IMG/VR virus record: IMGVR_UViG_3300006947_000078
Coordinates: 1-25,310 of that record
Reading direction: 5' to 3' (one strand)
Origin: a virus
DNA: 25,310 nucleotides
Position numbers and translations under genes: made by a program. Below are positions 1 through 25,248 of this stretch, piece after piece (positions within the stretch are counted from its first letter, which is position 1; every line of letters starts with the position of its first letter). The notes under the pieces were generated by a model, which did not search any database, was not told the origin of the DNA, and worked only from the letters and a program-made list of their open reading frames with translations.

Positions 1-338
1 CGTTCTCTACCAGTAAACTCTTTGTCTTTGTATTCATCACCGAGAATTCTAACATCGATACTATACATCTCTAATATGTCAGTAAGATCATCCTCTGTAG
101 CATATACAACTATCTCATCAACATATCTGATAGCCGCAAGTTGTGTATATCGCTCAACGATTGTTTGTATAGGTGAGTTCTTCTCTGGTCGATCCGTAGA
201 AGGGTCGATCTGTAATCCACATATCAAGTAATCACATTGCTCTTTAGCTTCTCGTAACATAGCAACATGACCTGCATGTAATAAGTCGAACGTAGATGCC
301 GTAAAGCCAACTATTGTTCTTGTCTCAGTAGGTCCCAT
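1..338 (-). CDS. Nucleotidyltransferase of the cytidylyltransferase (TagD/RfaE) type, 3' end cut by the window
   Basis: The first 112 residues are visible; the reading frame is open to the left edge of the window, so the C-terminus is missing. The N-terminus reads GFTASTFDLLHAGHVAML (about residues 11-28), which contains the HxGH nucleotide-binding signature (HAGH, residues 21-24) of the nucleotidyltransferase superfamily that includes glycerol-3-phosphate cytidylyltransferase and the RfaE/HldE ADP-heptose domain. A later stretch, RILGDEYKDKEFTGRE, fits the same fold. Such enzymes join CTP or ATP to a phosphorylated alcohol or sugar; the substrate cannot be told here. The ATG at 338 is preceded by GGAGAGAAAC, a good SD site, and overlaps the end of the PMM-like gene by 28 bases, so the two are probably translated together. 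The family call is firm; the specific reaction is open because the C-terminal motif is outside the window. Confidence 0.8.
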   Translation of the reverse strand, partial: MGPTETRTIVGFTASTFDLLHAGHVAMLREAKEQCDYLICGLQIDPSTDRPEKNSPIQTIVERYTQLAAIRYVDEIVVYATEDDLTDILEMYSIDVRILGDEYKDKEFTGRE

Positions 339-1012
339 GTTTCTCTCCAATTCTTAACATTATAAAATTTACTATTGTCTCTCTTTGATATAGCTTGCGA
401 AATCGTGTAGTCATTACCACCTTTCTCACACATATCACCTATAAAGCATAGTATAGCAGGTTTATCGTAGTCTGTCAAGACCTGTTCTTTACCAGAGTTT
501 AGTGGGTAGATATCTATGCCAGTTTCACCTGCGACACTAGCAGTCAAATACGGGTAGTGTTGATTGAACATATCAGCGATGTGTCCACGCTCCATATGAA
601 GTCCTTCGTATTCGGTATACCACTTGCGCTGTTCTGTGTTTGCATTACGACCCACGATACTGAAGTTTACCATACCTGGACGATGCTCGATATGATTGCC
701 AGTGCGTATGCCAAAGCCACTCTGCTCTAACTTCTCTTCTAAGAAATATTGTGCTAACTTAGGCAGTTTCCAGTCATTAGTTCTGATGTTATTATCACCT
801 TCCCAAACATCATTACCAGAACACTGATACACACGCTTACACTTGAAATATATGTAATCGCCAACTTGCTCAATAGTCTTAGCCCTATCGCTACCCGTAA
901 CTAAGCATACATGGTTGTTCTCAACAAATTTAGAGAACCAAACACCAAACTCAGCATCAATTCTGCCTCTGCTCGGTGTTAAAGTTCCGTCCACATCAAA
1001 TAGATAGATCAC
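311..1012 (-). CDS. HAD-family hydrolase resembling eukaryotic-type phosphomannomutase
   Basis: This 233-aa protein is close in length to eukaryotic phosphomannomutases (about 246 aa) and shows their motifs in order: FDVDGTLT (residues 5-12, nucleophile D6 and acid/base D8), VTGSD (38-42), RPGMVNFSIVGR (111-122, the sugar-phosphate loop of the cap domain), GETGIDIYP (162-170) and FIGDMCEKGGND (190-201, Mg binding). PMMs convert mannose-6-phosphate to mannose-1-phosphate for GDP-mannose synthesis. A more general sugar phosphatase is also possible. The start is GTG at 1012, giving VIYLFDVDG with fMet first, about 9 bases after GAGAG. The gene overlaps the upstream 57-aa gene by 17 bases and the downstream nucleotidyltransferase by 28 bases, so a joint sugar-nucleotide or glycan role is plausible but inferred. 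Confidence 0.82.
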   Translation of the reverse strand: MIYLFDVDGTLTPSRGRIDAEFGVWFSKFVENNHVCLVTGSDRAKTIEQVGDYIYFKCKRVYQCSGNDVWEGDNNIRTNDWKLPKLAQYFLEEKLEQSGFGIRTGNHIEHRPGMVNFSIVGRNANTEQRKWYTEYEGLHMERGHIADMFNQHYPYLTASVAGETGIDIYPLNSGKEQVLTDYDKPAILCFIGDMCEKGGNDYTISQAISKRDNSKFYNVKNWRETWDLLRQEQ

Positions 1013-1169
1013 GCTTTATACTCTCAATTTCATCTTTTAGTTTCAGTTTATCAACTTTCATTTTAACGATGTAATGGTCTGGTGCCTTCTCTGCTTCGGC
1101 AGCCTCAATGATAGCATGTTGATGCTTATGCTTTCGCTCTAATGATTCAAGTCTAGCCTCTATCGACAT
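996..1169 (-). CDS. Small helical DUF465 (YdcH)-like protein, 57 aa
   Basis: A complete 57-codon frame fills the space between gp46 and the PMM-like gene. It begins MSIEARLESLERKHKHQH and ends KLKLKDEIESIKRDLSI. The two-helix, strongly charged layout with a HYIVKMKVDKLKLKDEI core resembles the DUF465/YdcH family, small helical-hairpin proteins of unknown function. The ATG at 1169 has AAAGGAC five bases upstream and follows the gp46 stop by 14 bases, which supports real translation. It overlaps the start of the next gene by 17 bases. No function can be assigned. The coding call is fairly safe because of the SD, spacing and family resemblance; the family name is from pattern recognition. Confidence 0.72.
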   Translation of the reverse strand: MSIEARLESLERKHKHQHAIIEAAEAEKAPDHYIVKMKVDKLKLKDEIESIKRDLSI

Positions 1170-1183
1170 ATCTGTCCTTTCTA

Positions 1184-2893
1184 TTATGTTGCAATCCTAC
1201 TGAAGTTCTTTACTTTCTCAAACTTGATGACACTGTGGAATTTATCAAACAACTGGTCACCCTTGTGACTGATAATAAAGATATTGGAGTCAGCCGAGAG
1301 TTCTTCGATTATCTTAAGAAACTCTTCTGTACCAGAGGTGTCCAATGATGAATCCATTATCTCATCCATAATCAATAGATTAGTCGATACAGAGTTGCGT
1401 AACTTAGAAACTGCTCTCCAAGTAAACAGCAACGCTAAATCGATACGCAACTTCTCACCTTCAGAGAAAGATGCATACGAAAACTCATCACGAAATCTAG
1501 ACTTGATCGTCTCGTTGAAGTTCTCATCTAATTCAAACTGAACAAAGAAGTCCATAGCTGATAGATACTTTCCGATCAACTTATTCATAACAGGTACATA
1601 CTGCTTAATGATCCGTGTTTTGATACCACCATCCTTCAGCATAGACGAAACTATACTTAGGGTTTCTTTATCATCAAACAATTGTGTTTGGCTCTTATGA
1701 TGATCGGCAAGCTGAGTCTCTTGATCTTTGATCTCATTACTATCAATAGCAGTGACTTCACTCTCAGCTTCGTCTAACTCAGTCGTAATGTGTCTACACG
1801 AGTTAAGAGCCATCTTATGATTTGCTCTATGACCACTAGCGTCAAGATTCTTAGAGTTAATATCGTCTTCGACAAGATCGATCTCCTTAAGACGCTCTTC
1901 TACTTTTAGACCTCTATGTCCAAGTTCTGTCCTTGCCACTTCGATTTCTTGTGCTTTCGAAGAATTACCGCTAACGGTGTCGGTCTTGAAGTCGTGTTCG
2001 ATGCCCTGCTTGCAAGTTGGGCAGTTGTCATTGTGTTCGTAGAAGTCGATTTCTTTTCGCAGGGACTTGAGTTTGCTGGATAATTCTCCATCTAATGTCT
2101 GTAGCTCCTCTAATTTTTTCTTAGTAACACCCTTGTCGGAGATACCCTTAGTCAACCCCTCTATATCGTCTAGAATAGTATCAATGACAGCCTGTTCGCT
2201 TTCGATAAACGCAATTTGTTCACGTAGCTTCTCTTTAAGCTTAGACACTTCACCCTGCTTAATCTCACGAATGGAATCATTGTGCTTCTTGGATGAATCT
2301 ATTCTATTCTTAAGTAAATCGATCTGGTACTTTATCTCAGTGATCTCAGTCTTGTTAGCAGTAAGCCTATCTTTGAGTAACGTATTCATCACAGTAAAGA
2401 TTTGGATATCTAGCAAGTCTTCGATAACATCTCTTCTCTCACCAGCACGTAACTGCATGAACGGAACAAATGTACTAGCACCTAGAACAACAACTTGACC
2501 AAAAGACTTATAGTTTAACTTAAGGATACTCTCCTCTAGATAAGCTTGATAGTCTCGGGCAGCCGCATCTTGATTCATTAACTCATCGTTCTTCCAAATC
2601 TCAAAGAAGTTTGGCTTGATGCCACGCTTAATAACATACTTAGCACCACTTATGGTAAAGTACGCTTCGACTTCTAGACCCTTACCGTTGATGGAGTTAA
2701 GTAGTTGGTTTTTCTTAATAGTACGAAACGCCTTACCGTATAACGCAAACGTCAATGCGTCTAGCATAGTTGACTTACCTGCACCATTGTCACCAATAAC
2801 AAGAGTTGATTTACTCCTGTTTAGTTGTACTTCGGTCCAAGCATTACCAGTCGATAATATATTTTTATATCGAACTCTCTCAAACAAAATCAT
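1184..2893 (-). CDS. 46: Recombination nuclease subunit gp46 (Rad50/SbcC-like ATPase)
   Basis: This 569-aa SMC-type ATPase is close to T4 gp46 (560 aa). Visible motifs are Walker A GDNGAGKST (34-42), a long central coiled coil, the zinc-hook CPTC (291-294) inside that coil, the ABC signature FSEGEK (476-481), Walker B LLIMDE (506-511) and the H-loop region ISHK (541-544). With gp47 it forms the Mre11/Rad50-type complex that resects double-strand ends to make 3' single strands for UvsX/UvsY-driven recombination and recombination-dependent replication. In T4 it also takes part in host DNA breakdown. Its ATG overlaps the gp47 stop as ATGA, so the two subunits are translationally coupled. It is part of the gp55-gp47-gp46 run that probably starts at the sigma70-type promoter near 4.58 kb. 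All ATPase motifs are intact. Confidence 0.95.
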   Translation of the reverse strand: MILFERVRYKNILSTGNAWTEVQLNRSKSTLVIGDNGAGKSTMLDALTFALYGKAFRTIKKNQLLNSINGKGLEVEAYFTISGAKYVIKRGIKPNFFEIWKNDELMNQDAAARDYQAYLEESILKLNYKSFGQVVVLGASTFVPFMQLRAGERRDVIEDLLDIQIFTVMNTLLKDRLTANKTEITEIKYQIDLLKNRIDSSKKHNDSIREIKQGEVSKLKEKLREQIAFIESEQAVIDTILDDIEGLTKGISDKGVTKKKLEELQTLDGELSSKLKSLRKEIDFYEHNDNCPTCKQGIEHDFKTDTVSGNSSKAQEIEVARTELGHRGLKVEERLKEIDLVEDDINSKNLDASGHRANHKMALNSCRHITTELDEAESEVTAIDSNEIKDQETQLADHHKSQTQLFDDKETLSIVSSMLKDGGIKTRIIKQYVPVMNKLIGKYLSAMDFFVQFELDENFNETIKSRFRDEFSYASFSEGEKLRIDLALLFTWRAVSKLRNSVSTNLLIMDEIMDSSLDTSGTEEFLKIIEELSADSNIFIISHKGDQLFDKFHSVIKFEKVKNFSRIAT

Positions 2894-3956
2894 AAATCAA
2901 TCGCCTCTTTATACAGATCATCTAAAACTCTTTCAACTTTAGACTTATCACCAGTAAACTCTAGGTTCTGAACATACTGCTTCAGAATGGTTAGAGTATC
3001 TTGCGCCTCATCAACCAACTCGCTTTCATCTATAACATCAAGGTTCATGTGATCTTCTACGACTTTGATGTCGCATGGAGCAGATGCTTGAAGCCTATCT
3101 AAGAATAGGTCAAAGATGTAAGGATTACTTTTATTAGATACTATAACTTTAATAAAGGTGTTTGTCAAGTTAGTAGTGTCGAGATGGGCAACATCTTCTA
3201 TAGTCATGTCTGTATCATTGTATACAATCTTATGGAACAGACTGAACGGGTTACGAACATATTCCATTGTGCGAGATTCGGTATCAAACACACTAAAGCC
3301 ACGCTTCTGGTCATGATCCGACCAAGTCATTTCGTACTGTGCGCCTAGATATGAGATATTACCTATTGATGATGGCTGGTGGAAGTGACCAGAATAAACT
3401 GAGTCGAACTTAGCAAACGTGTTGCGGTCCATACCATGATCACATAGATGACCTTTATCCATCTCGTAGCCAGTGATCTCAAAGTGTCCCATAAGAATTT
3501 GCGCTTTGGTGTCAGCCATAGCTTTCATAGACATATCATAGTTCTCTGCACATAGCCATGGAGCAAGCATAATCTTACAACCGTCCATGTCCAACTCTAC
3601 TGGTTTTTCCCAATATAGATGTAAGTTCTGATGACTTGTATTACCGTACAATTGGTTAAGACTATTTACATCATTAGTGTTCTTGAAGTAAGTGTCATGA
3701 TTCCCGGCTATCATATACAGTTCAATGCCTTCGTCTGCACAGACTTTCATGAAGTGATCTTCAAGATTTTTAGCTGTAACGAAGTTGATATATTTCGTCT
3801 GTCTGTAACATCTCCCAAGTGAAATACTGTAGTTATCCCATTCTCACGTAGGTGTGGGAAGAATACTTCACGGTAAAACTTTATCTGATGATCAGCAATG
3901 GCAGTGTTATCATTACGTGCGCCCCAATGCGTATCGTTCAGGATTGCAATCTTCAT
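2890..3956 (-). pseudogene. 47: Recombination nuclease subunit gp47 (Mre11/SbcD-like), interrupted by a one-base frameshift
   Basis: Two adjacent frames together encode one gp47. The first (3747-3956, 69 aa) begins MKIAILNDTHWG with the phosphoesterase D8/H10 motif and GD at 48-49, then leaves frame after DRR and ends at a stop. The second frame carries on from the junction with KYINFVTAKNLEDHFMKV and holds GNHD, GHFEITGY and GHFHQ, the remaining metal-binding motifs. The break lies at 3793-3797, where the minus strand reads CGAAATATATC. One extra A (CGA AAA TAT ATC) restores a single frame of about 355 aa, against 339 aa in T4. The start follows gp55 by three bases with GAGGAC upstream. All active-site motifs survive across the two frames, so a sequencing or assembly error at the A run, or a very recent mutation, is more likely than decay. 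If real, neither piece holds the full active site. Confidence 0.9.
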
Positions 3957-3959
3957 GCT

Positions 3960-4529
3960 CTAGTCCTCTTTTTTAGGATCTTCGTCAATAAACTTCTCTA
4001 GACCCTTCTTGGCTTTCACTTGTTGCTTCTTCTTGTCTTCCATCTTCTTCTCATACGTCCTAACGAAGTCATTCATGTAGTCGTTATTGAGATCGATGTA
4101 AGCTGGTTCACCAGAAGCATCGTCTGCACCATCAGTAGCAGTACCCGTCATAACAGAATTCTCTGTGACTTTATGCTTGATGTAGAGTTGCTTCTTCTCT
4201 TTATCGATACGTCTTAAGAAAGCGTACCAGATAATCTGTGTAAAGTATGCAAATGGATTGTGTGATTTCTCTGGATCAAAATTACCTAGTGCTTGAATAG
4301 CATTCTCTAGACCATCACTAATCATCTCATCTTTGTATGAGTAGCCAGAAAAGTTTGGCTTAGATGCTAGTCTGGTGGATATCTGGTAGATACAGTGACC
4401 AATATAGTTTGGAATCTGTGGTCTTTTATCACCTGAGTCCTCTGCTTCGTTGCACAATTTCTTGTACGCTACGATAGCTTCCAGAAACTCTGGGTTGTTT
4501 ACGTAATTTCGTGTCGCTCGTTTAGCCAT
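3960..4529 (-). CDS. 55: Late-transcription sigma factor gp55
   Basis: This 189-aa protein is close to T4 gp55 (185 aa). The core, residues 62-109, contains GYSYKDEMISDGLENAIQAL and FDPEKSHNPFAYFTQIIWYA, the region-2-like segment typical of gp55 that binds host RNA polymerase and recognises the late -10 octamer TATAAATA. The C-terminus is lysine-rich and holds LEKFIDED (177-184), a hydrophobic-acidic patch that could be the sliding-clamp contact known for T4 gp55; that point is inference. The ATG at 4529 is preferred over an upstream TTG because GAGGTG sits four bases before it. The gene lies directly downstream of a sigma70-type promoter, as expected for a regulator made before late genes. 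Exact TATAAATA sites occur upstream of many genes to its right. Confidence 0.93.
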   Translation of the reverse strand: MAKRATRNYVNNPEFLEAIVAYKKLCNEAEDSGDKRPQIPNYIGHCIYQISTRLASKPNFSGYSYKDEMISDGLENAIQALGNFDPEKSHNPFAYFTQIIWYAFLRRIDKEKKQLYIKHKVTENSVMTGTATDGADDASGEPAYIDLNNDYMNDFVRTYEKKMEDKKKQQVKAKKGLEKFIDEDPKKED

Positions 4530-4562
4530 CAATCACCTCACCTTTTATAACTTATTTACTAT

Positions 4563-4591
4563 AGTATATACAAAAACGTACCGTTTGTCAA
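4563..4591 (-). promoter_or_regulatory. Sigma70-type promoter for the gp55-gp47-gp46 operon
   Basis: On the minus strand TTGACA (4586-4591) and TATACT (4563-4568) are separated by 17 bases, a near-consensus host sigma70 promoter. It lies about 34 bases upstream of the gp55 start. No late octamer is present here, which fits early or middle expression of the sigma factor and nuclease genes. Confidence 0.75.
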
Positions 4592-4635
4592 GACATTATT
4601 AATTTATATTTTATTGAAATAGTACTAGAAAAGAC

Positions 4636-4663
4636 TTGACATGGCTGTGGAATCGTGTATAAT
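4636..4663 (+). promoter_or_regulatory. Rightward sigma70-type promoter opposing all genes
   Basis: On the plus strand a perfect TTGACA (4636-4641) and a perfect TATAAT (4658-4663) are separated by 16 bases. Transcription would start near 4670 and run antisense into the 122-aa gene and uvsW. It is divergent from the gp55 promoter: the two -35 boxes lie in an imperfect 9-bp inverted repeat (4586-4594 and 4633-4641, 8 of 9 matching) around an AT-rich 38-bp centre. A short hairpin AGAGC-TAT-GCTCT (4664-4676) begins just after the -10. No product was recognised. Confidence 0.6.
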
Positions 4664-4687
4664 AGAGCTATGCTCTCAGCAATAGAA

Positions 4688-5056
4688 CTAATGTTTAACA
4701 CTAGACTTAGATTCAATTAACGCTGTGAACACATCTTCTATCGTAGTAGCATCATCATCAGCTAGATTGTCTTCTAGGTTGTAACTATCTTCAGACTGGA
4801 GATCATGTAGTCTCGCAACAAACGTGTCATAGTACTCTGTAGCTTTCTCATTTGCTTTTCCTAAGAACAGGACGTCCTTCTTTTTAAGAGAAACTGAGTT
4901 CTCTTCCGATAGTAACATCCAACTCTTAGCAAAGAATCCGTGTACTGGGTGAATTCGTACTTGTACAGGGTTCTCGATACTAATCTGATCATCGTCTTCT
5001 GATATAGAATTAGCTATCAAGTCTTCACCGTTACTCATTTTGATATGAATCAACAT
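4688..5056 (-). CDS. Unknown 122-aa protein with possible Sm-like barrel
   Basis: The product is not recognised by name. The N-terminal half, MLIHIKMSNGEDLIANSISE followed by QISIENPVQVRI, has the short beta-strand rhythm and the SNGEDLIA / IENPVQV signatures of Sm-like (LSm) or SH3-like barrels; this is inference. The C-terminal third is acidic (LQSEDSYNLEDNLADDDATT) and probably flexible. The ATG at 5056 is three bases after the uvsW stop, and its SD (AAAGGA) lies in the last uvsW codons, so the gene is coupled to uvsW. A conserved small gene between uvsW and gp55 would fit an RNA- or transcription-related role, but nothing proves it. A plus-strand promoter just beyond its 3' end could produce RNA antisense to it. 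Confidence 0.8.
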   Translation of the reverse strand: MLIHIKMSNGEDLIANSISEDDDQISIENPVQVRIHPVHGFFAKSWMLLSEENSVSLKKKDVLFLGKANEKATEYYDTFVARLHDLQSEDSYNLEDNLADDDATTIEDVFTALIESKSSVKH

Positions 5057-5059
5057 AAT

Positions 5060-6514
5060 TTATCCTTTAATACTAACATTATATATACGATACTCAAACC
5101 CCTCATCATTGTATATCTTAACTCTTTCAATGAAGTGCTTGACTGCAAAGTTCTTGTTTGACTTCCATTGTAGATCATCTACTATGTCGTAAAGCGTAGC
5201 TTTACTATTATTATTACTCTTCCGAAGTACTCTACCTATTGACTGCAAGTTTCTTATTTTGGACTTAGACGGACTAGCAAATATAATATTATCCAAACGC
5301 TTAATGTTAACACCAGTACTAAAGGTACCATAACTAGCGAGAATGATATTATCATCATTAGTCTCAGCGAGTCTCCTAACTTCTTCACGATCCTCTGCAC
5401 TGATTCCCCCATAGATGAAATGAACATGCTTGCCTTCTTTCTCAAGCATAGGTAATAGGACTTTACCGTGCTTTTCAACGAACTGAAACAGGATAAGAGT
5501 ATTACCATGCAGAGAGTGAGCAAGATTACGAATATATTTGTTTCTCGATTCATTAGTAACTATCCAGTCGATTTCTTCTTGATAGGTCTTACCTTTATTC
5601 AGCTTTCTAACTGCGTCTGGATACTGTAGAGTGATTGCTGTAATTCCAAACTCTGCGAGTGTGTTATCTTCTATCAGCTTCTTTGTAGTGGTTACTTCAT
5701 ACACTGCACCGAACAAACCTTCAAGCACCAACTTATGCGTCTGTGATCCGTCAAGTGTTCCTGTAAATCCATAGCGATACTTACAATCAATCATTTTCTC
5801 TAATACAGATATCAAAGACTTAGCTTTAAATAGGTGAGCCTCATCTCCTACGACCACATCGAATTTCTCATACCAATCTTTCTTTAACTTGTAAATAGAT
5901 TGCCATGTTGTGATAGTGATCTCAGCGTCAACGTTCTTATCAATGCCGCCTCTGATCTTATGTATATCTAATGGATTACCGTTATTATATTCGATGAAAT
6001 CAGAAGCCATTTGCTCTACAAGTGATGTCGTAGGTACGACAATGATAGTCTTTCTACCCTGTGCCATATGAAAACGTGTTAACATGTAGATGATAAAGGA
6101 TTTACCAGATGCGGTTGGTGACAGCATCAACGCCCTATCTCGTTTAAGTGCGTGTACTACAGCTTCGTTCTGGTACTCTCTAGGCACAAAAGTCGATTCA
6201 AACTCTTTAGCTAACTGCATTCCTGAGTCATCGGGCACATCATTTATCTCATACGTACCAGGGCTAACCTCTACAGGATAATCTCGCATGTTACAGAACT
6301 TTAGAATACGTGGAACGAGACCAGCATATATCATGCCCGTCATAGCATTAAACAATCTTATCTTGCCATCCCAAACTTTGTTACGTACAGAAGGTATGAA
6401 CTTAGCACCTGGTACTTCAAACTCGAAGTGTCCAGATAGCTCCATCTTAATGCCTGGTTCACAGCTTACTCTAACGTAAACATCGTTTACTCGTTCTATT
6501 AATACATTATCCAT
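5060..6514 (-). CDS. uvsW: UvsW-like superfamily 2 DNA/RNA helicase
   Basis: This 484-aa protein matches T4 UvsW (about 500 aa). A small N-terminal domain (about 1-100, with PGAKFIPSVRNKVWDGKIRL) precedes the helicase core: Q-type FVPREYQ (109-115), Walker A SPTASGKS (132-139), DEAH (224-227), motif III TGT (251-253) and motif VI QSIGRVLRKS (424-433). In T4, UvsW unwinds R-loops and branched recombination intermediates, and drives the switch from origin- to recombination-dependent replication. Its ATG overlaps the uvsY stop as TAATG, so the mediator and helicase are translated together. Transcription most likely starts at the sigma70-type promoter at 6981-7009. All helicase motifs look intact. 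Confidence 0.94.
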   Translation of the reverse strand: MDNVLIERVNDVYVRVSCEPGIKMELSGHFEFEVPGAKFIPSVRNKVWDGKIRLFNAMTGMIYAGLVPRILKFCNMRDYPVEVSPGTYEINDVPDDSGMQLAKEFESTFVPREYQNEAVVHALKRDRALMLSPTASGKSFIIYMLTRFHMAQGRKTIIVVPTTSLVEQMASDFIEYNNGNPLDIHKIRGGIDKNVDAEITITTWQSIYKLKKDWYEKFDVVVGDEAHLFKAKSLISVLEKMIDCKYRYGFTGTLDGSQTHKLVLEGLFGAVYEVTTTKKLIEDNTLAEFGITAITLQYPDAVRKLNKGKTYQEEIDWIVTNESRNKYIRNLAHSLHGNTLILFQFVEKHGKVLLPMLEKEGKHVHFIYGGISAEDREEVRRLAETNDDNIILASYGTFSTGVNIKRLDNIIFASPSKSKIRNLQSIGRVLRKSNNNSKATLYDIVDDLQWKSNKNFAVKHFIERVKIYNDEGFEYRIYNVSIKG

Positions 6515-6948
6515 TAGCCACCAACTCTAAATCTCTCCCAGTCTATAATGCTCTTTATTTGAAAGCCTCTGTTACCTATCATCTTAATGATGGCTTCTAA
6601 GTATTCCACTTTTTGTTCTTGTTCACCGATACGCAACCCAGCCTCGATCAGATCATTGTCTGCTTCGATGTATGTTGGTATGTCTTGTCTCAGAATTTTA
6701 AGGGGTTGAGGTTCCCAGCCATACTGCTTCAGCTCGGATACATCTAGGTCACCCTTGTAGTATTCCATCTTGAGCATCTTTAGCTTTTTGTATTCCGCTT
6801 TCATCTTACGTAGGAAATGACCTTCTCCCATATAAAATTTGAAATACTTATTGTGCAGTTTTGGTGTGTTCGAGGCTTCGCTCGATATGTTGATTGCATT
6901 GATTGGACCATCTTTGTCCCATTCTGCAATAATATTCTCTAGTTTCAT
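6514..6948 (-). CDS. uvsY: UvsY-like recombination mediator
   Basis: This 144-aa protein is close in size to T4 UvsY (137 aa). It is helical and charged, and ends with NRGFQIKSIIDWERFRVGG (residues 126-144), which parallels the end of T4 UvsY (SRGFAIKHIQDMRAF). UvsY loads the UvsX recombinase on gp32-coated single-stranded DNA. The ATG at 6948 is preceded by GGAGAGATGA. The gene is first in a uvsY-uvsW-(122 aa) run under a sigma70-type promoter and is directly coupled to uvsW. No uvsX is present in this window. The identification rests on size, the C-terminal match and the position next to uvsW. Confidence 0.87.
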   Translation of the reverse strand: MKLENIIAEWDKDGPINAINISSEASNTPKLHNKYFKFYMGEGHFLRKMKAEYKKLKMLKMEYYKGDLDVSELKQYGWEPQPLKILRQDIPTYIEADNDLIEAGLRIGEQEQKVEYLEAIIKMIGNRGFQIKSIIDWERFRVGG

Positions 6949-6980
6949 TCATCTCTCCATAATTTAAGTATCGTTCTGCG

Positions 6981-7009
6981 ATCATATCACAGGTAGTTAG
7001 TATTGTCAA
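6981..7009 (-). promoter_or_regulatory. Sigma70-type promoter for uvsY-uvsW
   Basis: On the minus strand TTGACA (7004-7009) and TATGAT (6981-6986) are separated by 17 bases. The site lies about 33 bases upstream of uvsY, immediately after the stop codon of the late tube-fold gene. It marks the border between the late structural block and the recombination block. Confidence 0.75.
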
Positions 7010-7013
7010 CTCA

Positions 7014-7535
7014 TCATATTATCTTTATAGAATAATCACTGTATTTAAAAGTTATATCAAAATTTGGTGGTGTAACATCCGCATCAGTAGTATTTAGCTG
7101 TATGCTACCAACGGCTACTGGAAACATATCTTTAAAGACTATCTCTATATTCGGATTCTTGTTACTATCTAATACGATCAAAGTACCATCAGACGTTACG
7201 CCTGAACCTTCAGGATTGAGTCGTGAAGATGATGCCACTTGTGGCGAGTTAAGTGCCGCATATCCTGTAAAGCTTTCAGGTCTAGTAATAGCTTCTAGCC
7301 AGCTCAAGGACTCTTTAAACGATAGCATATTTTCGTCTGCTATAATCTGTAGTGTAAGGTCTTCATAGACTAGCGTATCACCTGGTGTATAGATCGACTT
7401 AAATGGAGTCATTCTTTCTGCGTATCCAGAGTTAACTCCAGGAATGTTTACCTGCTGTACGTAAAATTCAACATTCGGCAATCTATTGATTACGAATTTG
7501 AACTCGACTGATGATAGAAAGTTATTTGTAGCCAT
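7014..7535 (-). CDS. Tail-tube-fold protein, possible tail terminator (gp3 position) or gp19 paralogue
   Basis: The 173-aa product has the pattern of the phage tail-tube fold: a strand with FKFVINRLPNVEFYVQQVNI, the turn PGVNSGYAE, then PGDTLVYEDLTLQIIADENM and a long helix SFKESLSWLEAI, ending with PPNFDITFKYSDYSIK. It resembles the real gp19 in this window in size and in its final strand (gp19 ends ERFDVTFQYDWWNV). In marine T4-like phages the gene after gp23 is often annotated as gp3, the tail terminator (T4 gp3, 176 aa), and size and position agree. I cannot distinguish gp3 from a second tube or tube-initiator protein. It has its own late promoter (7560-7567), and GGGAGA upstream of ATG 7535. 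Confidence 0.8.
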   Translation of the reverse strand: MATNNFLSSVEFKFVINRLPNVEFYVQQVNIPGVNSGYAERMTPFKSIYTPGDTLVYEDLTLQIIADENMLSFKESLSWLEAITRPESFTGYAALNSPQVASSSRLNPEGSGVTSDGTLIVLDSNKNPNIEIVFKDMFPVAVGSIQLNTTDADVTPPNFDITFKYSDYSIKII

Positions 7536-7559
7536 GTTCTTCTCCCACGTTTATTCTAT

Positions 7560-7567
7560 TATTTATA
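7560..7567 (-). promoter_or_regulatory. T4-type late promoter for the tube-fold gene
   Basis: An exact TATAAATA octamer on the minus strand, ending 25 bases before the ATG at 7535. It lies right behind the gp23 terminator, so this gene can be transcribed independently of gp23. Confidence 0.75.
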
Positions 7568-7582
7568 TACAAAAAAAAGAGC

Positions 7583-7610
7583 AAAAAAAAGAGGCTCCGA
7601 AGAGCCTCTT
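7583..7610 (-). terminator. Intrinsic terminator after gp23
   Basis: On the minus strand a perfect 9-bp stem, AAGAGGCTC pairing with GAGCCTCTT (7602-7610 and 7589-7597), closes a UUCG tetraloop flanked by C and G, the most stable RNA loop type. Eight T residues follow (7590-7583), then GC and a second run of T. It lies 33 bases downstream of the gp23 stop and is the strongest terminator in the window. Confidence 0.93.
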
Positions 7611-7642
7611 AAAGTCAGGTTGGGTTGACCCCAATCTTATTT

Positions 7643-8905
7643 TTATAGCAAGTTAGTAACTGCTGTACGACGGTAGTAAACGTTATCGTTGGCAGTAAGT
7701 GCGCCTGAGCGAACTGTAGCACCACCAGCGAATGGGTTAGCAACCATGCCGTAACGAGTCTTGAATCCAAGCTTAGATTGGAAGCTATTCTCGCCAACTG
7801 CACGAACCATTTGTAATGGCACGTATGGGCAATAGAAGAGACCAGCATCGAATGTGCTAGAACCTTTATAACCAACTACCATGTAGTTAGCACCGGCGTA
7901 TGGATCGATATACACTTTGAAGCGACCGTTCAGAACACCAGCAAACGTGTTGCCTGTGTCATCTGGGCTCAAGTTGTTGCTATTCAAAGCAGGAGCATAG
8001 TCAAGAACGCCTGCCATTTGAAGTGCAGATGCAACATCAGATGAACATACGATCAAGTTACCTTTGCCTCGACGGGTGTCTTTAGCAATTTGGTTAGCTT
8101 CTTTTTCGATTTGGAACATGAGACCTTTAAACTTCTCTACGCTCCAACGGCCGTTAGCATCAACGTCTAAGTTGAATGTACCAGCAGTAGCAGTACCAGT
8201 CTGTGATCCAGCTTTACTTGTTACATAAACCGTACGAATTACTTCACGGTTAATTTCAGCAAGCAATTCAGCAGACAACATGTTAGCTAACTCAGTCTCA
8301 GCATCCAAACCATGGATAGCTTTAAGGTCTTGAGCAAGTTCAGTTGTGTACTCTGCTTTCAAAGCACGTGACTTAGCTGTTACAGATACTTTCTCGATAG
8401 CGAAAGACATTTGAGCGAACTCAGCAGCCGAACCATCACCAAGAGCTTCTGCATCAGCAGTAGCAAAACCAGAACCAGTTGTTTCTGAGCCAGCACCCAA
8501 TGCGTTAGCATGAGTTCCAGTACCAGAATAATCTGAATCGGATTCGGTGTAGAAAGCTTCTGGCTTACCGCCAGTGTCTTCGTACTTAGTACGCATTGCG
8601 AAGATAAGTCCAGTAGGACCAGTCATTGGCTGAACGCCAGCAATGTCATATGCAACCAAGTTAGGCATTGCACGGCGTACTAGAGAGATCAGTACGGGAT
8701 CATATTTAGCCATATCAGCACTAGAGTTAGCAGGTGCGGCTTCAAGCAATGATGTAGGTGCATATCCACCTTCTTCAATCATAGCTGTTTCAGTGTTCTC
8801 CAATAGAGTTGCTGTAACAGCACTTCTGTGAGAGTCTTGGATACCCGGTAGAGCAGTATGCTCTAGGATGGGCTTCCACTTGTTCATCAGTTCTTCATTT
8901 CTCAT
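7643..8905 (-). CDS. 23: Major capsid protein gp23
   Basis: This 420-aa protein is shorter than T4 gp23 (521 aa). The N-terminus MRNEELMNKWKPILEH and the phrase DPVLISLVRRAMPNLVAYDI (about residues 70-90) are typical of T4-like capsid proteins, as is the C-terminal SKLGFKTRYGMVANPFAGG. The precursor carries an N-terminal propeptide. SLLE-AAPAN fits the gp21 cleavage rule (hydrophobic-X-Glu then a small residue), which puts the mature start at A56. It forms the hexameric shell around the gp22/gp67 core. The ATG at 8905 has AAGGAGAACCACAAA before it and an exact late octamer 36 bases upstream. A strong terminator follows, so gp23 can be made as its own abundant transcript. Confidence 0.96.
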   Translation of the reverse strand: MRNEELMNKWKPILEHTALPGIQDSHRSAVTATLLENTETAMIEEGGYAPTSLLEAAPANSSADMAKYDPVLISLVRRAMPNLVAYDIAGVQPMTGPTGLIFAMRTKYEDTGGKPEAFYTESDSDYSGTGTHANALGAGSETTGSGFATADAEALGDGSAAEFAQMSFAIEKVSVTAKSRALKAEYTTELAQDLKAIHGLDAETELANMLSAELLAEINREVIRTVYVTSKAGSQTGTATAGTFNLDVDANGRWSVEKFKGLMFQIEKEANQIAKDTRRGKGNLIVCSSDVASALQMAGVLDYAPALNSNNLSPDDTGNTFAGVLNGRFKVYIDPYAGANYMVVGYKGSSTFDAGLFYCPYVPLQMVRAVGENSFQSKLGFKTRYGMVANPFAGGATVRSGALTANDNVYYRRTAVTNLL

Positions 8906-8941
8906 TTTGTGGTTCTCCTTTTTTGAGATTTTACTTAGTAG

Positions 8942-8949
8942 TATTTATA
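8942..8949 (-). promoter_or_regulatory. T4-type late promoter for gp23
   Basis: An exact TATAAATA octamer on the minus strand, 36 bases before the gp23 ATG and just past the gp22 stop. It gives gp23 separate late transcription. Confidence 0.78.
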
Positions 8950-8955
8950 TAATAA

Positions 8956-9882
8956 TTATTTGGCAAAGCGGTTTAAAGAATCTGCATAGGCAGCAACGTT
9001 CGGATTAGAACTAATTACTGGCTTAACGTCATCCGCAATCTCTTCATTAAGAAGATCAGTTTCATCTTCAGATACAACAGGAGCAGATTCGGTAAAGTAG
9101 TTGTCACGAATAGCAACAAGTTTCTTACTGTAGTCTTCTACTGTATCATAAGATACGCCTTCTGAGAGAACACGCAACTTGTCTGCTTGTGTGTCAGTTA
9201 GATCCTCAGAAATTCCTTTGAAGGCAACTTCAAGGTCGGCTTGTGTCTTAGCTTCACGAACTTCAATCATTTGCTCAACGATCTCGTTATATTTAGTAGT
9301 AGACTCTTCGAGCTTTCCTTCTAAATCAGCAACGATATCTTTTTGCTCATCATCGATTTCCATGTTGTGTTCAACAACAAGACCCTTGATGCCAGTTAAT
9401 AGTGATTCAGCGACTTCAACTTTGATGTTGCTTTCGATTTGAACCTGATTGTCATCCATCCAACCCTCTACAACGTAGTCGAGATAGGCGTCAACTTTTT
9501 CTACCAACTCATCAACAGCAACGTTTACTTGTTCCTGTAGATCACTTTCAAACTTTTCTTCAAGTGTAGCAGTTTCAGCTAACACTTTTTCATGTACTGC
9601 GGCTTCGAAAATAGCAATAGTTTGCATTTTGAAGTCTTCAGATAAATCTGATCCTTCAAACATACGCTCAACAGCTTCTTTCATACCTACATCGTTTTTT
9701 CCTTGAGGGGTTTTGACATCATCTTCGACATCATCAGCTTTTGCATCAGCGGCTTTCTTAAGATCACCCTTGCGCTTTTTCACTGAACCACCTGTGGGAG
9801 TAACAGCATCGGCTGCAACAGAATCTTCGCCCGTAGCTTTCGCTTCATCTAGGTCTAGATTCTTTTCTAGTTCTTCACTCAT
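8956..9882 (-). CDS. 22: Prohead core scaffolding protein gp22
   Basis: The 308-aa product is acidic, almost free of Cys and Trp, and largely helical (for example VLAETATLEEKFESDL and KLEESTTKYNEIVEQM), as expected of the main core protein gp22 (T4, 269 aa). It assembles inside the prohead and is cut to peptides by gp21. The gene sits between gp21 and gp23 as in T4. The start MSEELEKN at 9882 is preferred over an upstream in-frame ATG at 9915 because AAAGGAGAAGTCAAA precedes it. A lysine/aspartate-rich segment near residues 35-60 (KKRKGDLKKAADAKADDVED) may contact DNA or other core proteins; that is inference. The identification rests on position and composition more than on motifs. Confidence 0.9.
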   Translation of the reverse strand: MSEELEKNLDLDEAKATGEDSVAADAVTPTGGSVKKRKGDLKKAADAKADDVEDDVKTPQGKNDVGMKEAVERMFEGSDLSEDFKMQTIAIFEAAVHEKVLAETATLEEKFESDLQEQVNVAVDELVEKVDAYLDYVVEGWMDDNQVQIESNIKVEVAESLLTGIKGLVVEHNMEIDDEQKDIVADLEGKLEESTTKYNEIVEQMIEVREAKTQADLEVAFKGISEDLTDTQADKLRVLSEGVSYDTVEDYSKKLVAIRDNYFTESAPVVSEDETDLLNEEIADDVKPVISSNPNVAAYADSLNRFAK

Positions 9883-9922
9883 TTTGACTTCTCCTTTTAT
9901 AAGTAGTGTGTTCATTTAGTAT

Positions 9923-9930
9923 TATTTATA
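9923..9930 (-). promoter_or_regulatory. T4-type late promoter for gp22
   Basis: An exact TATAAATA octamer on the minus strand, 40 bases before the gp22 ATG at 9882 and just downstream of the gp21 stop at 9950. Confidence 0.76.
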
Positions 9931-9949
9931 AAAATCATGTGTTACGCTT

Positions 9950-10627
9950 TTAGCGCAAAGACCTTACAAACCTTTCAAATAGAGCGGCAGCTTTCACCTC
10001 TAGCTCCTTCGTAGATACTCTTGCGGTATCTCTAATTTCTTCTTCGATTTGGTCAAAAGCTTGCGCTGAAGTCCATGAAGAAGAAGCAACATCATATATC
10101 CATTCTACCCCTTCCATAACACCCTTTACGAATGCGTCAGGAGCAGACGGGTCTGCAACGATGTCTCCGGCAGTTGCAAGCATAAAGTCATCTTGCACTT
10201 CCATGATTCCGTTCTTATTCTGTTTAATTGATCCCATGCCACGTGACGAAATACCAACTAGTCCGCCTTCATCGATAATATTCTTAACGATTTTGCCCAT
10301 AGGGGTTTCCATAATCTTAGCACGACCAACAATGTTCGAACCGTCTTGCTTTAATTCAGTGAACATGTGTGATACACGATCTAGATTAATAGTTGGTCCT
10401 GCTGGGTGTCCTAATTCGCCATATGCACGATTTTTCGCAACATATGATTCATTATATCTCTTCATCTCTTTTACGAGAACTCTTGAAGGATACATGCGAC
10501 CATTTCTGTTTTTGATATCACCTTGCATGATGATACCTTCGATGAAGTAATTCTTACCTTTACCGTCTTCTGAGGCTTCAGTAATATAGTGTACGTCTTC
10601 AACGAGTTCTTTAATTAATAATGACAT
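9950..10627 (-). CDS. 21: Prohead core protease gp21
   Basis: This 225-aa protein is close to T4 gp21 (212 aa). The protease core shows GELGHPAGPTINLDRVSHMF (70-89, catalytic His74) and GGLVGISSRGMGSI (121-134, catalytic Ser at 127 or 128), the His-Ser pattern of the prohead serine protease family. It cleaves the scaffold and the gp23 propeptide after Glu in L/I-X-E sites, then itself. The start MSLLIKELVEDV at 10627 is chosen over a frame opening at 10708 because GGGAGGAAGA lies immediately upstream and the upstream gene ends ten bases before it. The LGHP loop and GISSRG motif are intact, so it should be active. It sits before gp22 and gp23, the proteins it cuts. Confidence 0.95.
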   Translation of the reverse strand: MSLLIKELVEDVHYITEASEDGKGKNYFIEGIIMQGDIKNRNGRMYPSRVLVKEMKRYNESYVAKNRAYGELGHPAGPTINLDRVSHMFTELKQDGSNIVGRAKIMETPMGKIVKNIIDEGGLVGISSRGMGSIKQNKNGIMEVQDDFMLATAGDIVADPSAPDAFVKGVMEGVEWIYDVASSSWTSAQAFDQIEEEIRDTARVSTKELEVKAAALFERFVRSLR

Positions 10628-10637
10628 TCTTCCTCCC

Positions 10638-10955
10638 TTATCTGTAAACGACTGGTGTATATGAGATATTGGCGGTAGGTGTAATAGTTTGTCCAAGTTG
10701 CTTCTCAATGGTTACAGTCTCGCCAACATGCATCTTAAAGCTATATGTTAGGCCAGCTTCACGATTAACTGTGACATTTCCATTGACCGTCTGGTTAGTT
10801 GCCGCACTTGCACCAATAACAATTGTATTAAATCCACTAGATCCTTCGTTAAAAATCCGGACTCTAGTAGCTGTAGTGCCTGTATGACCGGCGGCGCTTG
10901 TTGCGTTTGCTGCCAATGCGACTAATACGCTTGTTCCTCTGATTACGCTAGACAT
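10638..10955 (-). CDS. Unknown 105-aa beta-rich protein between core genes and gp21
   Basis: I do not recognise this protein. It is small, rich in Thr, Ala, Val and Gly, without Cys, and alternates like a beta-sandwich (RVRIFNEGSSGFNTIVIGAS, then TVEK-type strands, ending ISYTPVVYR). The ATG at 10955 is preferred over a GTG at 10970 because GGGGAAA lies five bases upstream. It begins one base after the stop of the 205-aa core protein and ends ten bases before gp21, so it is co-transcribed with head-assembly genes. A small structural or capsid-decorating protein is the natural guess, based only on context and composition. T4 has no equivalent gene at this place. Confidence 0.8.
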   Translation of the reverse strand: MSSVIRGTSVLVALAANATSAAGHTGTTATRVRIFNEGSSGFNTIVIGASAATNQTVNGNVTVNREAGLTYSFKMHVGETVTIEKQLGQTITPTANISYTPVVYR

Positions 10956-10956
10956 A

Positions 10957-11574
10957 TTATTTCCCCGCACTCATGGCAAATTGCACCATCTTCATGAAGT
11001 TATTCTTATCGTCTAACATGCCTTCGACTTTCTTTTTGTTCGCACCGCTAAGTTGCTTGTGCATAGAAACGATCATTGATGCAGTAGTTAAGTCAACTTT
11101 CTGCTTCTTACCGTCTTTAAACTTTACAGCTTTCATAGATTTTGTCTTTACGATGTCTTGTAAATCAGCTAGAACGCCTTCAGTAATCTCTTCAGAAACT
11201 TCCTCGGAAACTTCTTCGTCTTTCATTGCCATCTTAGTAGCAGTTGCATACATAACGTCTTTAGCTTTGTCGCCGTAACGAGATTTGAATTCGCTCATTT
11301 TGGCTTTCAAAGACATTACAATTTCTTCACGCTTCTTTTCCTGCTCAGGAGTCATTTCTGATTCAGAAGCTTCGTACACTTCTTTATCTTGACCCTCTTC
11401 ACGATCTGCATCACGCTTCTTTTTCTTTTTACCCTTGATGTCTCCAGAAAACTGGTCATCAGGTGCGACTGGATGGTCTTGCTTGGATACAATATGTTTG
11501 TCTAAAAAGTTTTGTTCATCCGGAGACTTAGGCTTATCAGCCGTCTCTGCAAGCATGTCCTTAAAGCTTTTCAT
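10957..11574 (-). CDS. Putative prohead core or internal head protein (gp68 position), lysine-rich
   Basis: This 205-aa protein occupies the place of T4 gp68, between the gp67-like gene and gp21. It is highly charged. A basic tract, KGKKKKKRDADREE (47-60), precedes a helical block (74-118) containing KKREEIVMSLKAKMSEFKSR and then VMYATATKMAMK, a motif I associate with internal or core proteins of marine T4-like phages. A short tandem EVSEEVSEE (121-129) separates it from a second block (140-205) with KAVKFKDGKKQKVDLTTA and MVQFAMSAGK. The composition fits a core or DNA-binding internal protein. The start at 11574 has AAGGGG before it. Homology to T4 gp68 is not evident from sequence; the call rests on position. 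Confidence 0.75.
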   Translation of the reverse strand: MKSFKDMLAETADKPKSPDEQNFLDKHIVSKQDHPVAPDDQFSGDIKGKKKKKRDADREEGQDKEVYEASESEMTPEQEKKREEIVMSLKAKMSEFKSRYGDKAKDVMYATATKMAMKDEEVSEEVSEEITEGVLADLQDIVKTKSMKAVKFKDGKKQKVDLTTASMIVSMHKQLSGANKKKVEGMLDDKNNFMKMVQFAMSAGK

Positions 11575-11583
11575 GTTAGCCCC

Positions 11584-11757
11584 TTACTCTTCTGTTTCAG
11601 CATCAGCTTCAACAGAAACTTCTTCTGGTGAAAACATTGATGTATATTTGGTTTCGATAGCAGACATCATCTTGTCCGACATAATATCGCCGAAAGCGGA
11701 CTCAAACCCTGTTGCGTCTTTGTCTTGTGCTTTCTGTATCAATTCTTTTACACTCAT
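11584..11757 (-). CDS. 67: gp67-like prohead core protein, 57 aa
   Basis: A complete 57-codon frame follows gp20 directly. It reads MSVKELIQKAQDKDATGFES and AFGDIMSDKMMSAIETKYTS and ends in a strongly acidic tail with EADAETEE. This is the form of T4 gp67 (80 aa): a short N-terminal helix, a region around DIMSDKM, and an acidic C-terminus, in the same place between the portal and gp21. gp67 is an abundant core protein cleaved by gp21. The ATG at 11757 has a strong SD (AAAGGAGATAGTAA) and an exact late octamer 27 bases upstream, which is strong support that this short frame is a real gene. Confidence 0.82.
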   Translation of the reverse strand: MSVKELIQKAQDKDATGFESAFGDIMSDKMMSAIETKYTSMFSPEEVSVEADAETEE

Positions 11758-11783
11758 TTACTATCTCCTTTATTATATAATGT

Positions 11784-11791
11784 TATTTATA
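11784..11791 (-). promoter_or_regulatory. T4-type late promoter for the gp67-like gene and core cluster
   Basis: An exact TATAAATA octamer on the minus strand, 26 bases before the gp67-like ATG, in the short space after the gp20 stop. It probably drives the gp67-like, 205-aa, 105-aa and gp21 genes. Confidence 0.76.
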
Positions 11792-11809
11792 TTCTTTCAT
11801 AACTGTTGT

Positions 11810-13378
11810 TTAAATATCTAAATCGTCTGCGTCATTATCGTCTCCGAGGGCTTTTTCCGCATCTGCCGCGGCTTTGTCCTCTGCTTCGACTGCTTCTTTC
11901 ATCTTCTCGATATCATCTTCAGTCATTTGAAGTACATTCTTACGTACCCAATCACTGGAGTAGTATTTACCTACATACTCATCAATATCTCTTAGAACAC
12001 CTAGACGCTCTCTTAATATCTCACTAGACTTCAACTCTTCAAAATGATTATCACTCATGAAGTCATAACGAACTAGAGATTGTATCTCTGGCCATTCTTC
12101 TGGAGTAATAATTCCTTTTAGAATTAATTGCTTCTCAAGTATCTTATCAAACAACGTAGAAAATCTAGTTCTTAATCTGTTAACGAACTTAGCAAACTTG
12201 ATCTCATCTCGTGAAATCTCACTCGCTCTACCTAGAGAGAAACCTGCATCAGTCTCCATTCTAGAAATAGGCACGTTCAATGACTTAAACAAACGCTTCT
12301 GGAAGTATAATACATCGTCTAGTTCACCTAGATTTTGTCCACCAGGTAGTGTCGTAATTTCAGTACCTCTACCACCTTCTCTTCGTGGTAACCAGAAATC
12401 ATCTGTCATAGACATATGTCTGCGGTCATCTTTTACGTCACCAGTTGCCATGTCATAAACCATGCGGTTCTTATGCTTGGTCATCATATCACGTAGATAT
12501 TGCTCTGCTTTAAGCTTAGGCAAATTACCCACATCAATATAAAAAATTCTTCTTTCAGGCGCTCTTGAAATCCTATAGATAACAACTGCGTCTTCCATCA
12601 TTCTCAACTGATTCAAAGGCTTATATGCTTTATGCATATGAGATAGAACTAATGTGCTAGTCTCATTAAGTAACCCAGAATTAGCAGTAACAATCGAATC
12701 TTTAGCGATCTTAAGGCCGTTCATTGCAGTGTTGCCTTGGGTTTGCTGTTGCTGTGCCCCTGCAATTCCTGCCATGTTATTAAAGCCCTTCTCACTATAG
12801 ATAAAGTACTCATTCTTAACTTTTTTAGCGACAAGTTGATTTTCGTTATTGCTACCAACTTTTTCTTTTTCGAACTCACGAACTTTACGAATCTTTCGTG
12901 GATCAATGTAACGTAGTTCTTGTATGCCTTTACGTGGTGCTGTAGTATCGATCATCACGTGGTAGTTAAGTCTTCCATCAACGTACCATTTCTGAAACGT
13001 TTCGTATCCGTTATTAGAGAAATCTAGCAGTTTTAACACTGTATCGAACTCTTCTCTAATCTTCTTCTTAATACCGTCAGATAAATCTACATCATCTGTA
13101 ATACATTCAACGACTTTTGCATCGTGGGATATACATATAGCTTCGTTAACGATGTCATCGACTGCTTGAGAAACCTCAGGCTGTTGTAACATAGTCCTAT
13201 ACTTCTGGACCAATTCAGCTTCAGATTTAGCCGTTCCATCCATATCCAAAAAGCTACTGACACCAGTACCTGTTGCGGCAATATTTACTGAGCCGTCTTC
13301 CTCATTTGCTTGAACGAAAGAAGGTATGTTGTTATTACCTTCTGCCTTTCTCTTTATCTGAAATCCAAATAGTTCCAT
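11810..13378 (-). CDS. 20: Portal vertex protein gp20
   Basis: This 522-aa protein is almost the length of T4 gp20 (524 aa). Typical gp20 segments are seen: a PEVSQAVDDIVNEAICISHD block near residues 68-87, IDTTAPRKGIQELRYIDPRK in the middle, IYRISRAPERRIFYIDVGNL, and a C-terminal helical stretch with SLGRASEISRDEIKFAKFVN. It forms the dodecameric ring at the unique head vertex through which gp17 pumps DNA and to which the neck binds. The acidic C-terminus (EAEDKAAADAEKALGDDNDA) is common in this family. The ATG has AAAGGATAAACT upstream. No late octamer was seen before it, so it may be read through from gp19. Confidence 0.96.
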   Translation of the reverse strand: MELFGFQIKRKAEGNNNIPSFVQANEEDGSVNIAATGTGVSSFLDMDGTAKSEAELVQKYRTMLQQPEVSQAVDDIVNEAICISHDAKVVECITDDVDLSDGIKKKIREEFDTVLKLLDFSNNGYETFQKWYVDGRLNYHVMIDTTAPRKGIQELRYIDPRKIRKVREFEKEKVGSNNENQLVAKKVKNEYFIYSEKGFNNMAGIAGAQQQQTQGNTAMNGLKIAKDSIVTANSGLLNETSTLVLSHMHKAYKPLNQLRMMEDAVVIYRISRAPERRIFYIDVGNLPKLKAEQYLRDMMTKHKNRMVYDMATGDVKDDRRHMSMTDDFWLPRREGGRGTEITTLPGGQNLGELDDVLYFQKRLFKSLNVPISRMETDAGFSLGRASEISRDEIKFAKFVNRLRTRFSTLFDKILEKQLILKGIITPEEWPEIQSLVRYDFMSDNHFEELKSSEILRERLGVLRDIDEYVGKYYSSDWVRKNVLQMTEDDIEKMKEAVEAEDKAAADAEKALGDDNDADDLDI

Positions 13379-13396
13379 AGTTTATCCTTTAATAAA

Positions 13397-13415
13397 GGGA
13401 GAGCATAACCCTCCC
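13397..13415 (-). terminator. Weak hairpin between gp19 and gp20
   Basis: On the minus strand GGGAG and CTCCC form a 5-bp stem, extendable by a G-T and an A-T pair, around a nine-base loop, followed by TTTATT. It could be a partial terminator or an RNA stability element after gp19. The U-run is poor, so confidence is low. Confidence 0.35.
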
Positions 13416-13432
13416 CTAATCTAGTTGCTCAA

Positions 13433-13987
13433 TTAAGCGTTAGTGCCGCCAGTACCAGTAATACCACCGTCAACGTTCCACCAATCATACTGGAATGTAA
13501 CATCGAATCTTTCGATATCGTCTGTAGTATTCCAATCCATTGTGATTGCTCCAACCGAAGTTGGGAAGATACCGTTGAAGTTGTACACTCGTAGGGGTAC
13601 GCCAGTTTTCGAGTACTGAGTAATCTGTGCTTGTGACTTATACTCAGAACTTGATGCTGTTGCTAACTGCCTTGTGTTGCCTTCATGAGCGTTGATTGAA
13701 GCCATCCAGTTTTCCATCGCATTGCGAATTAGGAAGTCTTCATCGTTCATGATAGTAACAGTCCATTCTGCGAATGTTCTGTCACCAGCCACTTTTACTT
13801 TACGACCGAAATACGGGATCTCGATTGTTCCCAGGGTACTCTCTGGTATTGCTGCCGCCTGAACCATGAAGGGTGTCTTAAGATCAGCTATCGCATTTAC
13901 AGGGTTTGTAATCTGTACTTGAAATAGTGACGCTTTAGCGCCTCCAAAGGTCAATTGGCTTTTGATTTCGTTAATGTTGAAAGCCAT
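13433..13987 (-). CDS. 19: Tail tube protein gp19
   Basis: This 184-aa protein (T4 gp19, 163 aa) starts MAFNINEIKSQLTFGGAKAS and contains VQITNP, the strand-turn PYFGRKVKVAGDRTFAEWTV (about residues 59-78) and the closing strands GAITMDWNTTDDIERFDVTF, typical of T4-like tube subunits. Hexamers stack on the baseplate to form the inner tube through which DNA passes, and the gp18 sheath assembles around it. The ATG at 13987 has AAAGGAGAAATGAATA upstream. It lies directly after gp18, as in T4. The Gly/Thr-rich tail (VDGGITGTGGTNA) extends past the T4 end. Confidence 0.94.
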   Translation of the reverse strand: MAFNINEIKSQLTFGGAKASLFQVQITNPVNAIADLKTPFMVQAAAIPESTLGTIEIPYFGRKVKVAGDRTFAEWTVTIMNDEDFLIRNAMENWMASINAHEGNTRQLATASSSEYKSQAQITQYSKTGVPLRVYNFNGIFPTSVGAITMDWNTTDDIERFDVTFQYDWWNVDGGITGTGGTNA

Positions 13988-14010
13988 TATTCATTTCTCC
14001 TTTGAATTAG

Positions 14011-14018
14011 TATTTATT
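14011..14018 (-). promoter_or_regulatory. Possible late promoter variant for gp19
   Basis: AATAAATA on the minus strand, one base from TATAAATA, 23 bases before the gp19 ATG and overlapping the gp18 stop codon. Position fits a late promoter; the first-base mismatch lowers confidence. Confidence 0.45.
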
Positions 14019-15831: not shown

Positions 15832-15884
15832 CTCTTATTTCTCCTTGTTTATTTTGTAAGTTATAAACTTCTTTATTCTCTTTA

Positions 15885-15892
15885 TATTTATA
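15885..15892 (-). promoter_or_regulatory. T4-type late promoter for gp18
   Basis: An exact TATAAATA octamer on the minus strand between the gp17 stop and the gp18 start, 53 bases before the ATG. It allows high sheath expression apart from the terminase genes. Confidence 0.75.
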
Positions 15893-15911
15893 AAAACAGT
15901 GATTCACCATA

Positions 15912-19738: not shown

Positions 19739-19743
19739 TTTAG

Positions 19744-20487: not shown

Positions 20488-20515
20488 CTTTACTTCCCAT
20501 AGTTAGTTTCTATAG

Positions 20516-20523
20516 TATTTATG
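20516..20523 (-). promoter_or_regulatory. Possible late promoter variant for gp13
   Basis: CATAAATA on the minus strand, one base from TATAAATA, 28 bases before the gp13 ATG. Spacing matches the exact late octamers elsewhere in the window, but the first position differs. Confidence 0.45.
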
Positions 20524-20536
20524 CTTATTGTTTCGG

Positions 20537-24450: not shown

Positions 24451-24485
24451 GGTTCACTCTCCCCAATAGCGTTTATGTGTACTAT

Positions 24486-24493
24486 TATTTATA
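24486..24493 (-). promoter_or_regulatory. T4-type late promoter for the fibre gene
   Basis: An exact TATAAATA octamer on the minus strand, 35 bases before the GTG start at 24450. It overlaps the stop codon of the upstream 243-aa gene. Confidence 0.76.
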
Positions 24494-25220: not shown

Positions 25221-25248
25221 TATATGTTTCTCCTATATTTGATAATAC

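Follow-up and report, generated by a model that had tools for sequence, protein, structure and literature searches.

A conserved backward-facing sigma70-type promoter beside the late sigma factor gene gp55 in marine T4-like phages is probably a control device

A sigma70-type promoter that reads against nearly all genes of the virus lies next to gp55, the gene for the late sigma factor, in a 25,310-nucleotide stretch of DNA from IMG/VR record IMGVR_UViG_3300006947_000078 (hereafter the window), which covers part of a marine T4-like phage genome. Since almost all relatives keep this backward promoter, at whole helix turns from the gp55 signal, it probably serves as a genuine control device. We posit, at roughly even odds (probability about 0.5), that the two promoters form a cis-regulatory divergent pair in which antisense transcription or promoter occupancy would temper the uvsY-uvsW-Sm operon and would be coupled to gp55. 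The part of this reading that rests on sequence comparison is that the predicted promoter and initiator are kept family-wide and that the -35 box is in helical phase with the -35 box of gp55. The sea abounds in T4-like phages, and one backward promoter phased to a late-sigma promoter amounts to a concrete, testable control point.

The minus strand of the window carries gp46, gp47, gp55, a gene for a 122-aa protein, uvsW, uvsY, a tail tube gene and the gene for the major head protein, and its closest named relatives are the Kyanoviridae (Table 1). The start of gp55 was taken as an ATG in preference to an upstream TTG at 4532. Coding is similarly lopsided in three large relatives, which are ~97–99% one-stranded by ORF length. 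The antisense promoter is flanked by two operons with sigma70-type promoters, and it sits in a part of the window without T4-type late promoters (TATAAATA), as all nine of these (2.2 expected) are on the minus strand at 7560–25256, in the structural half. The 122-aa neighbour of gp55 is, by profile and structure prediction, an Sm-like protein of the PDB 3by7 family: an AF2 model (mean pLDDT 82) matched 3by7 in Foldseek with a TM (target) of up to 0.85, the S-SCSM1 homologue carries an Sm-like annotation, and for Pfam Sm_like (PF16243) the S-RSM4 homologue is above the cut-off while the window member is below it. Within the window-like and Melnitz-like groups, the acidic linker of this protein varies and its C-terminal tip is conserved, with a final His (KH, IH). 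A gp47-like gene (2890–3956, minus strand) is spread over two frames, 2890–3750 and 3747–3956, both matching PHROG 100, possibly owing to a frameshift or a sequencing error. A tRNA search found none, and an Rfam scan of the window gave no match.

Table 1. Features around the antisense promoter, in window coordinates
Feature	Position	Strand	Basis or remark
gp55, late sigma factor	3960–4529	-	PHROG 234, E 6e-61
Divergent gp55 promoter	4563–4591	-	TTGACA-17-TATACT, 11/12
Antisense sigma70-type promoter	4636–4663	+	TTGACA-16-TATAAT, 12/12; -35 TTGACA 4636–4641, 16-nt spacer, -10 TATAAT 4658–4663
Palindrome AGAGC-TAT-GCTCT straddling the predicted start	4664–4676	.	arms covary between relatives
T-A-T initiator, predicted RNA start A4670	4669–4671	+	T-purine-T 7 nt past -10
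122-aa Sm-like protein gene	4688–5056	-	profile match to PDB 3by7, E 8.6e-10
uvsW-like helicase	5060–6514	-	PHROG 16, E 2.5e-105
uvsY-like recombination mediator	6514–6948	-	PHROG 231, E 1.1e-40
uvsY promoter, sigma70-type	6981–7009	-	TTGACA-17-TATGAT, 11/12

The promoter had been predicted from the letters of the window alone, and is present exactly where and as the original prediction placed it. It was also said to be the best consensus promoter of the window, which agrees with a scan of positions 1–20000 in which it was the only site to score 12/12; the runners-up, all 11/12 and all on the minus strand, lie at 7009–6981, 4591–4563, 3168–3140 and 478–450. Another perfect plus-strand pair of hexamers occurs at 20124–20153, within a minus-strand gene (19744–20487), and has an 18-nt spacer (TTGACA-18-TATAAT). 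Promoter-like sites overall were not enriched over positions 1–20000 (55 versus 56.1 in shuffles), so the evidence rests on conservation and not on a single match. The site combines the features expected of a sigma70-type promoter, with near-consensus hexamers, a spacer in the range of 16–18 nt and a purine initiator ~7 nt past the -10 box, and it is aimed into the complement of the Sm-like gene, as befits a cis-antisense promoter. Literature searches returned no report of this promoter, with coverage incomplete enough that a published start site here is possible.

Conservation was assessed first among close relatives, a set of 141 gp55-region sequences of which 79, including the window, are distinct (gp55 58–100% identical). 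The antisense promoter scores at least 11/12 in all 79 and is perfect in 70, compared with 0.9% of dinucleotide shuffles that reach at least 11/12 and 0.03% that reach 12/12. It is kept where the 122-aa neighbour is only ~30% identical, and also at three loci (L080–L082) where the 122-aa gene was not found. Among cyanophage-like loci, all 76 distinct sequences score at least 10/12, typically as TTGACA-17-TAGAAT or TACAAT, and isolates carrying the promoter include S-RSM4, S-CAM3, S-RIM12, ACG-2014b, ACG-2014d, S-SCSM1, KBS-M-1A, Syn2 and P-HM1. Most Melnitz-like phages have it as well, often with a weaker -35 (TTGACT) and -10 (TATATT). Information values for the -35 and -10 are inflated, as the boxes served to find the sites. 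Conservation of the boxes in close relatives was the check named in the original prediction, and the boxes indeed persist in almost every relative despite divergence of the flanking genes. Judged by this sequence record, the predicted promoter is not a chance match, and phages of such dissimilar hosts as Synechococcus and methylotrophs have retained it. Counting against the proposed divergent pair, a recognisable antisense promoter is missing at five of ~300 loci (all loci with the 122-aa gene), and the -35 is weak in part of the Melnitz-like group, with a poor -35 in Melnitz-2.

Divergent initiation is common at bacterial promoters, and no product has been identified for the site, both of which would suit a functionless reverse initiation that merely accompanies the gp55 promoter. 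We consider this by-product explanation quite improbable. It fits poorly because, in the window clade, the antisense promoter is nearer consensus (mean score 11.9) than that of gp55 (10.3) and also better conserved, and its separate -35 and -10 boxes, its conserved initiator and its tandem copies in some relatives likewise speak against a by-product.

A T-purine-T motif stands exactly 7 nt past the -10 box in 69% of 131 distinct sequences, with other offsets reaching at most 22%, and this offset is where a sigma70 start belongs, in keeping with the predicted start at A4670. That start is 18 nt short of the stop codon of the 122-aa gene, and the start region overlaps the 3′ end of this gene (4688–5056, minus strand); uvsW would be a target only of an antisense RNA longer than ~390 nt. 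Conservation is confined to the promoter and some 20 nt past the start. Across relatives no conserved ORF follows the start, and the longest antisense ORF near it has a median of 17 codons, which upholds the earlier statement that no plausible plus-strand gene lies downstream: the 16-codon frame at 4670–4720 is real but unconserved. A4670 is the A of the ATG of this frame in the window, such that the RNA might begin at the ATG and be translated as a leaderless micro-gene; as the ATG is lacking in most relatives and no conserved frame was seen among the short antisense ORFs near the start, this is very improbable.

Features of a defined transcript were likewise not found. No conserved intrinsic terminator is present, with 6 of 275 loci having one on either strand, and a GTAAAGC-GTA-GCTTTAC hairpin inside uvsW (5189–5205), considered as a candidate terminator, was rejected as it is kept only in the nearest relatives. 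The overlapped 3′ end of the Sm-like gene has no codon-level constraint past the last codon, and the first 91 nt of the antisense RNA fold no better than shuffles (z -0.77). Given no conserved terminator and no constraint on the RNA body, the sequence does not establish a discrete small antisense RNA. The original prediction is thus backed in part: conservation and phasing favour a functional promoter that is aimed in antisense at the 122-aa gene and uvsW and has a link to gp55, but do not establish a discrete small RNA. The antisense delay of uvsW that it proposed is plausible.

The two arms of the palindrome that straddles the predicted start change in concert among relatives, with a z of 6.7 in the window clade and of 6.0 in cyanophages if antisense-strand wobble is counted, and the palindrome is absent in a sizeable share of relatives. 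Between near relatives (L010, L254, L224 and others) the letters of the arms differ yet still match as complements, and the centre holds its place at the start. Since transcription from the predicted start would leave out the 5′ arm, which lies upstream, the antisense RNA would contain only part of the hairpin, and since the arms vary freely between near relatives, a sequence-specific operator at the start is unlikely. The covarying palindrome is unexplained by the divergent-pair reading, and this counts against that reading.

The back-to-back arrangement with the gp55 promoter that had been described, 4591–4563 on the minus strand beside 4636–4663 on the plus strand, is present, and its geometry is constrained as expected of a divergent pair. 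The two -35 boxes are separated by 44 bp in the window and by 2–7 bp in most cyanophages, and elsewhere the gap clusters near 14, 24, 35 and 45 bp, giving a helically phased series across relatives of about 5, 14, 24, 35 and 45 bp; centre to centre, the boxes are approximately a whole number of helical turns apart. Phasing was evaluated against a smoothed null for gaps of 10–60 bp in the window-like and Melnitz-like groups, each 50%-identity cluster being represented by a single sequence, and the periodogram peaked at 10–10.25 bp, where R reached 0.81 over 25 clusters compared with a null mean of 0.23 (p below 1/5000). R was 0.67 with clustering at 60% and 0.66 at 70%. A simple jitter test proved too liberal, as it also fires on a unimodal control distance, and was set aside. 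This helical phasing, which is new here, suggests that the antisense and gp55 promoters are coupled; it is a constraint on geometry, and does not itself give the sign or the mechanism of the coupling. The imperfect inverted repeat reported between the promoters exists (4586–4597/4630–4641, 83% over 12 nt) but consists of hardly more than the two -35 boxes, beyond which relatives keep little. The suggestion of one regulator for both directions is accordingly backed as far as joint control goes, through the phasing, but not as an inverted-repeat operator.

In the divergent-pair reading, host RNA polymerase would start at 4670 early in infection and would then run antisense into the Sm-like and uvsW genes from their 3′ ends, such that the uvsY-uvsW-Sm operon may be tempered or delayed in cis by polymerase collision, occupancy or RNA pairing. 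The uvsY operon has its own promoter facing the antisense promoter (7009–6981, minus strand, convergent), which counts in favour of this reading. Because the -35 boxes are phased, and are 2–7 bp apart in most cyanophages, polymerase at one promoter would probably affect the firing of the other, which would couple antisense and gp55 output. An antisense RNA acting in this way would not have to encode anything, end at a defined point or have a conserved body. Conservation that ends ~20 nt past the start, with no ORF, terminator or codon constraint, is the pattern predicted if transcription itself, or occupancy, is what counts. More tentatively, the pair could be a Kyanoviridae-wide switch of phased host-type promoters, in which the output of either promoter is set by occupancy of its partner, thereby timing the passage from early to late transcription and the provision of UvsW and Sm-like protein; we regard this broader proposal as possible, though doubtful.

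The unconserved RNA body would also fit a boundary function, in which polymerase held at the antisense promoter acts as a roadblock to read-through from uvsY-uvsW-Sm into gp55, the RNA is incidental, and the late sigma factor is consequently made only from gp55's own promoter. The presence of such a promoter for gp55 agrees with this, as does the location of a near-perfect consensus just past the last stop codon of the operon in nearly all relatives. A roadblock alone, however, leaves the conserved initiator and the helical phase to the gp55 -35 unexplained, and cyanophage versions are often 10–11/12 and not perfect; we judge this explanation unlikely.

A promoter without a gene of its own to serve, near recombination genes, also recalls oriF (uvsY) and oriG (34) of T4, which are MotA-dependent middle promoters with a required unwinding element (PMC3016281). 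By analogy, an R-loop formed by the antisense transcript might prime leading-strand synthesis here. T4 origins do look like gene-less promoters with an A+T-rich unwinding element downstream (PMC3016281), the first 165 nt of the antisense transcript are 66% A+T (window ~61%), and the adjoining uvsW and uvsY act in T4 replication. Unlike the T4 origins, however, this promoter is of the early sigma70 type, no distinct unwinding element has been demonstrated, and no sign of an origin was found in three large relatives, where the GC skew is unchanged at the site. The antisense RNA would moreover be C-rich (GC skew -0.137), and C-rich RNA is expected to be unfavourable for stable R-loops. An origin is therefore improbable in our assessment.

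Antisense transcription has precedents in related phages. Belin et al. (1987; cited in PMC2988021) reportedly described antisense transcription of T4 gene 32, which resembles the present case in being antisense to an early replication/recombination gene of a T4-type phage, at a different locus. CfrI, an antisense RNA of ~225 nt, has been detected in cyanophage S-PM2 at psbA and a homing endonuclease gene (PMC2984593, PMC5931967), and likewise represents antisense transcription in a T4-like cyanophage that is thought to be regulatory. Unlike CfrI, the promoter described here lies at the Sm-like/gp55 boundary and is family-wide, and its RNA is predicted from sequence. Bacterial divergent overlapping pairs, such as that at the uxuR 3′ end (PMC10016265), similarly consist of back-to-back sigma70-type promoters within a single short stretch, one of them antisense, whereas the pair in question is kept across a phage family, has phased -35 boxes and includes a partner that drives a late sigma factor. 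Cyanophages are without homologues of MotA, Asi and Alt/Mod, and their control of early and middle transcription has been described as unclear (PMC2984593).

The antisense promoter and its start region are tandemly duplicated, ~76–108 nt apart, at nine loci (L010, L012, L013, L014, L049, L051, L092, L031 and L117). In a 91-kb relative (G001; loci L319–L323), 20 promoters on the coding strand are perfect matches, and a spacer resembling ..GTCCAACCTG.. recurs in many of them, suggesting that they form a repeated promoter family.
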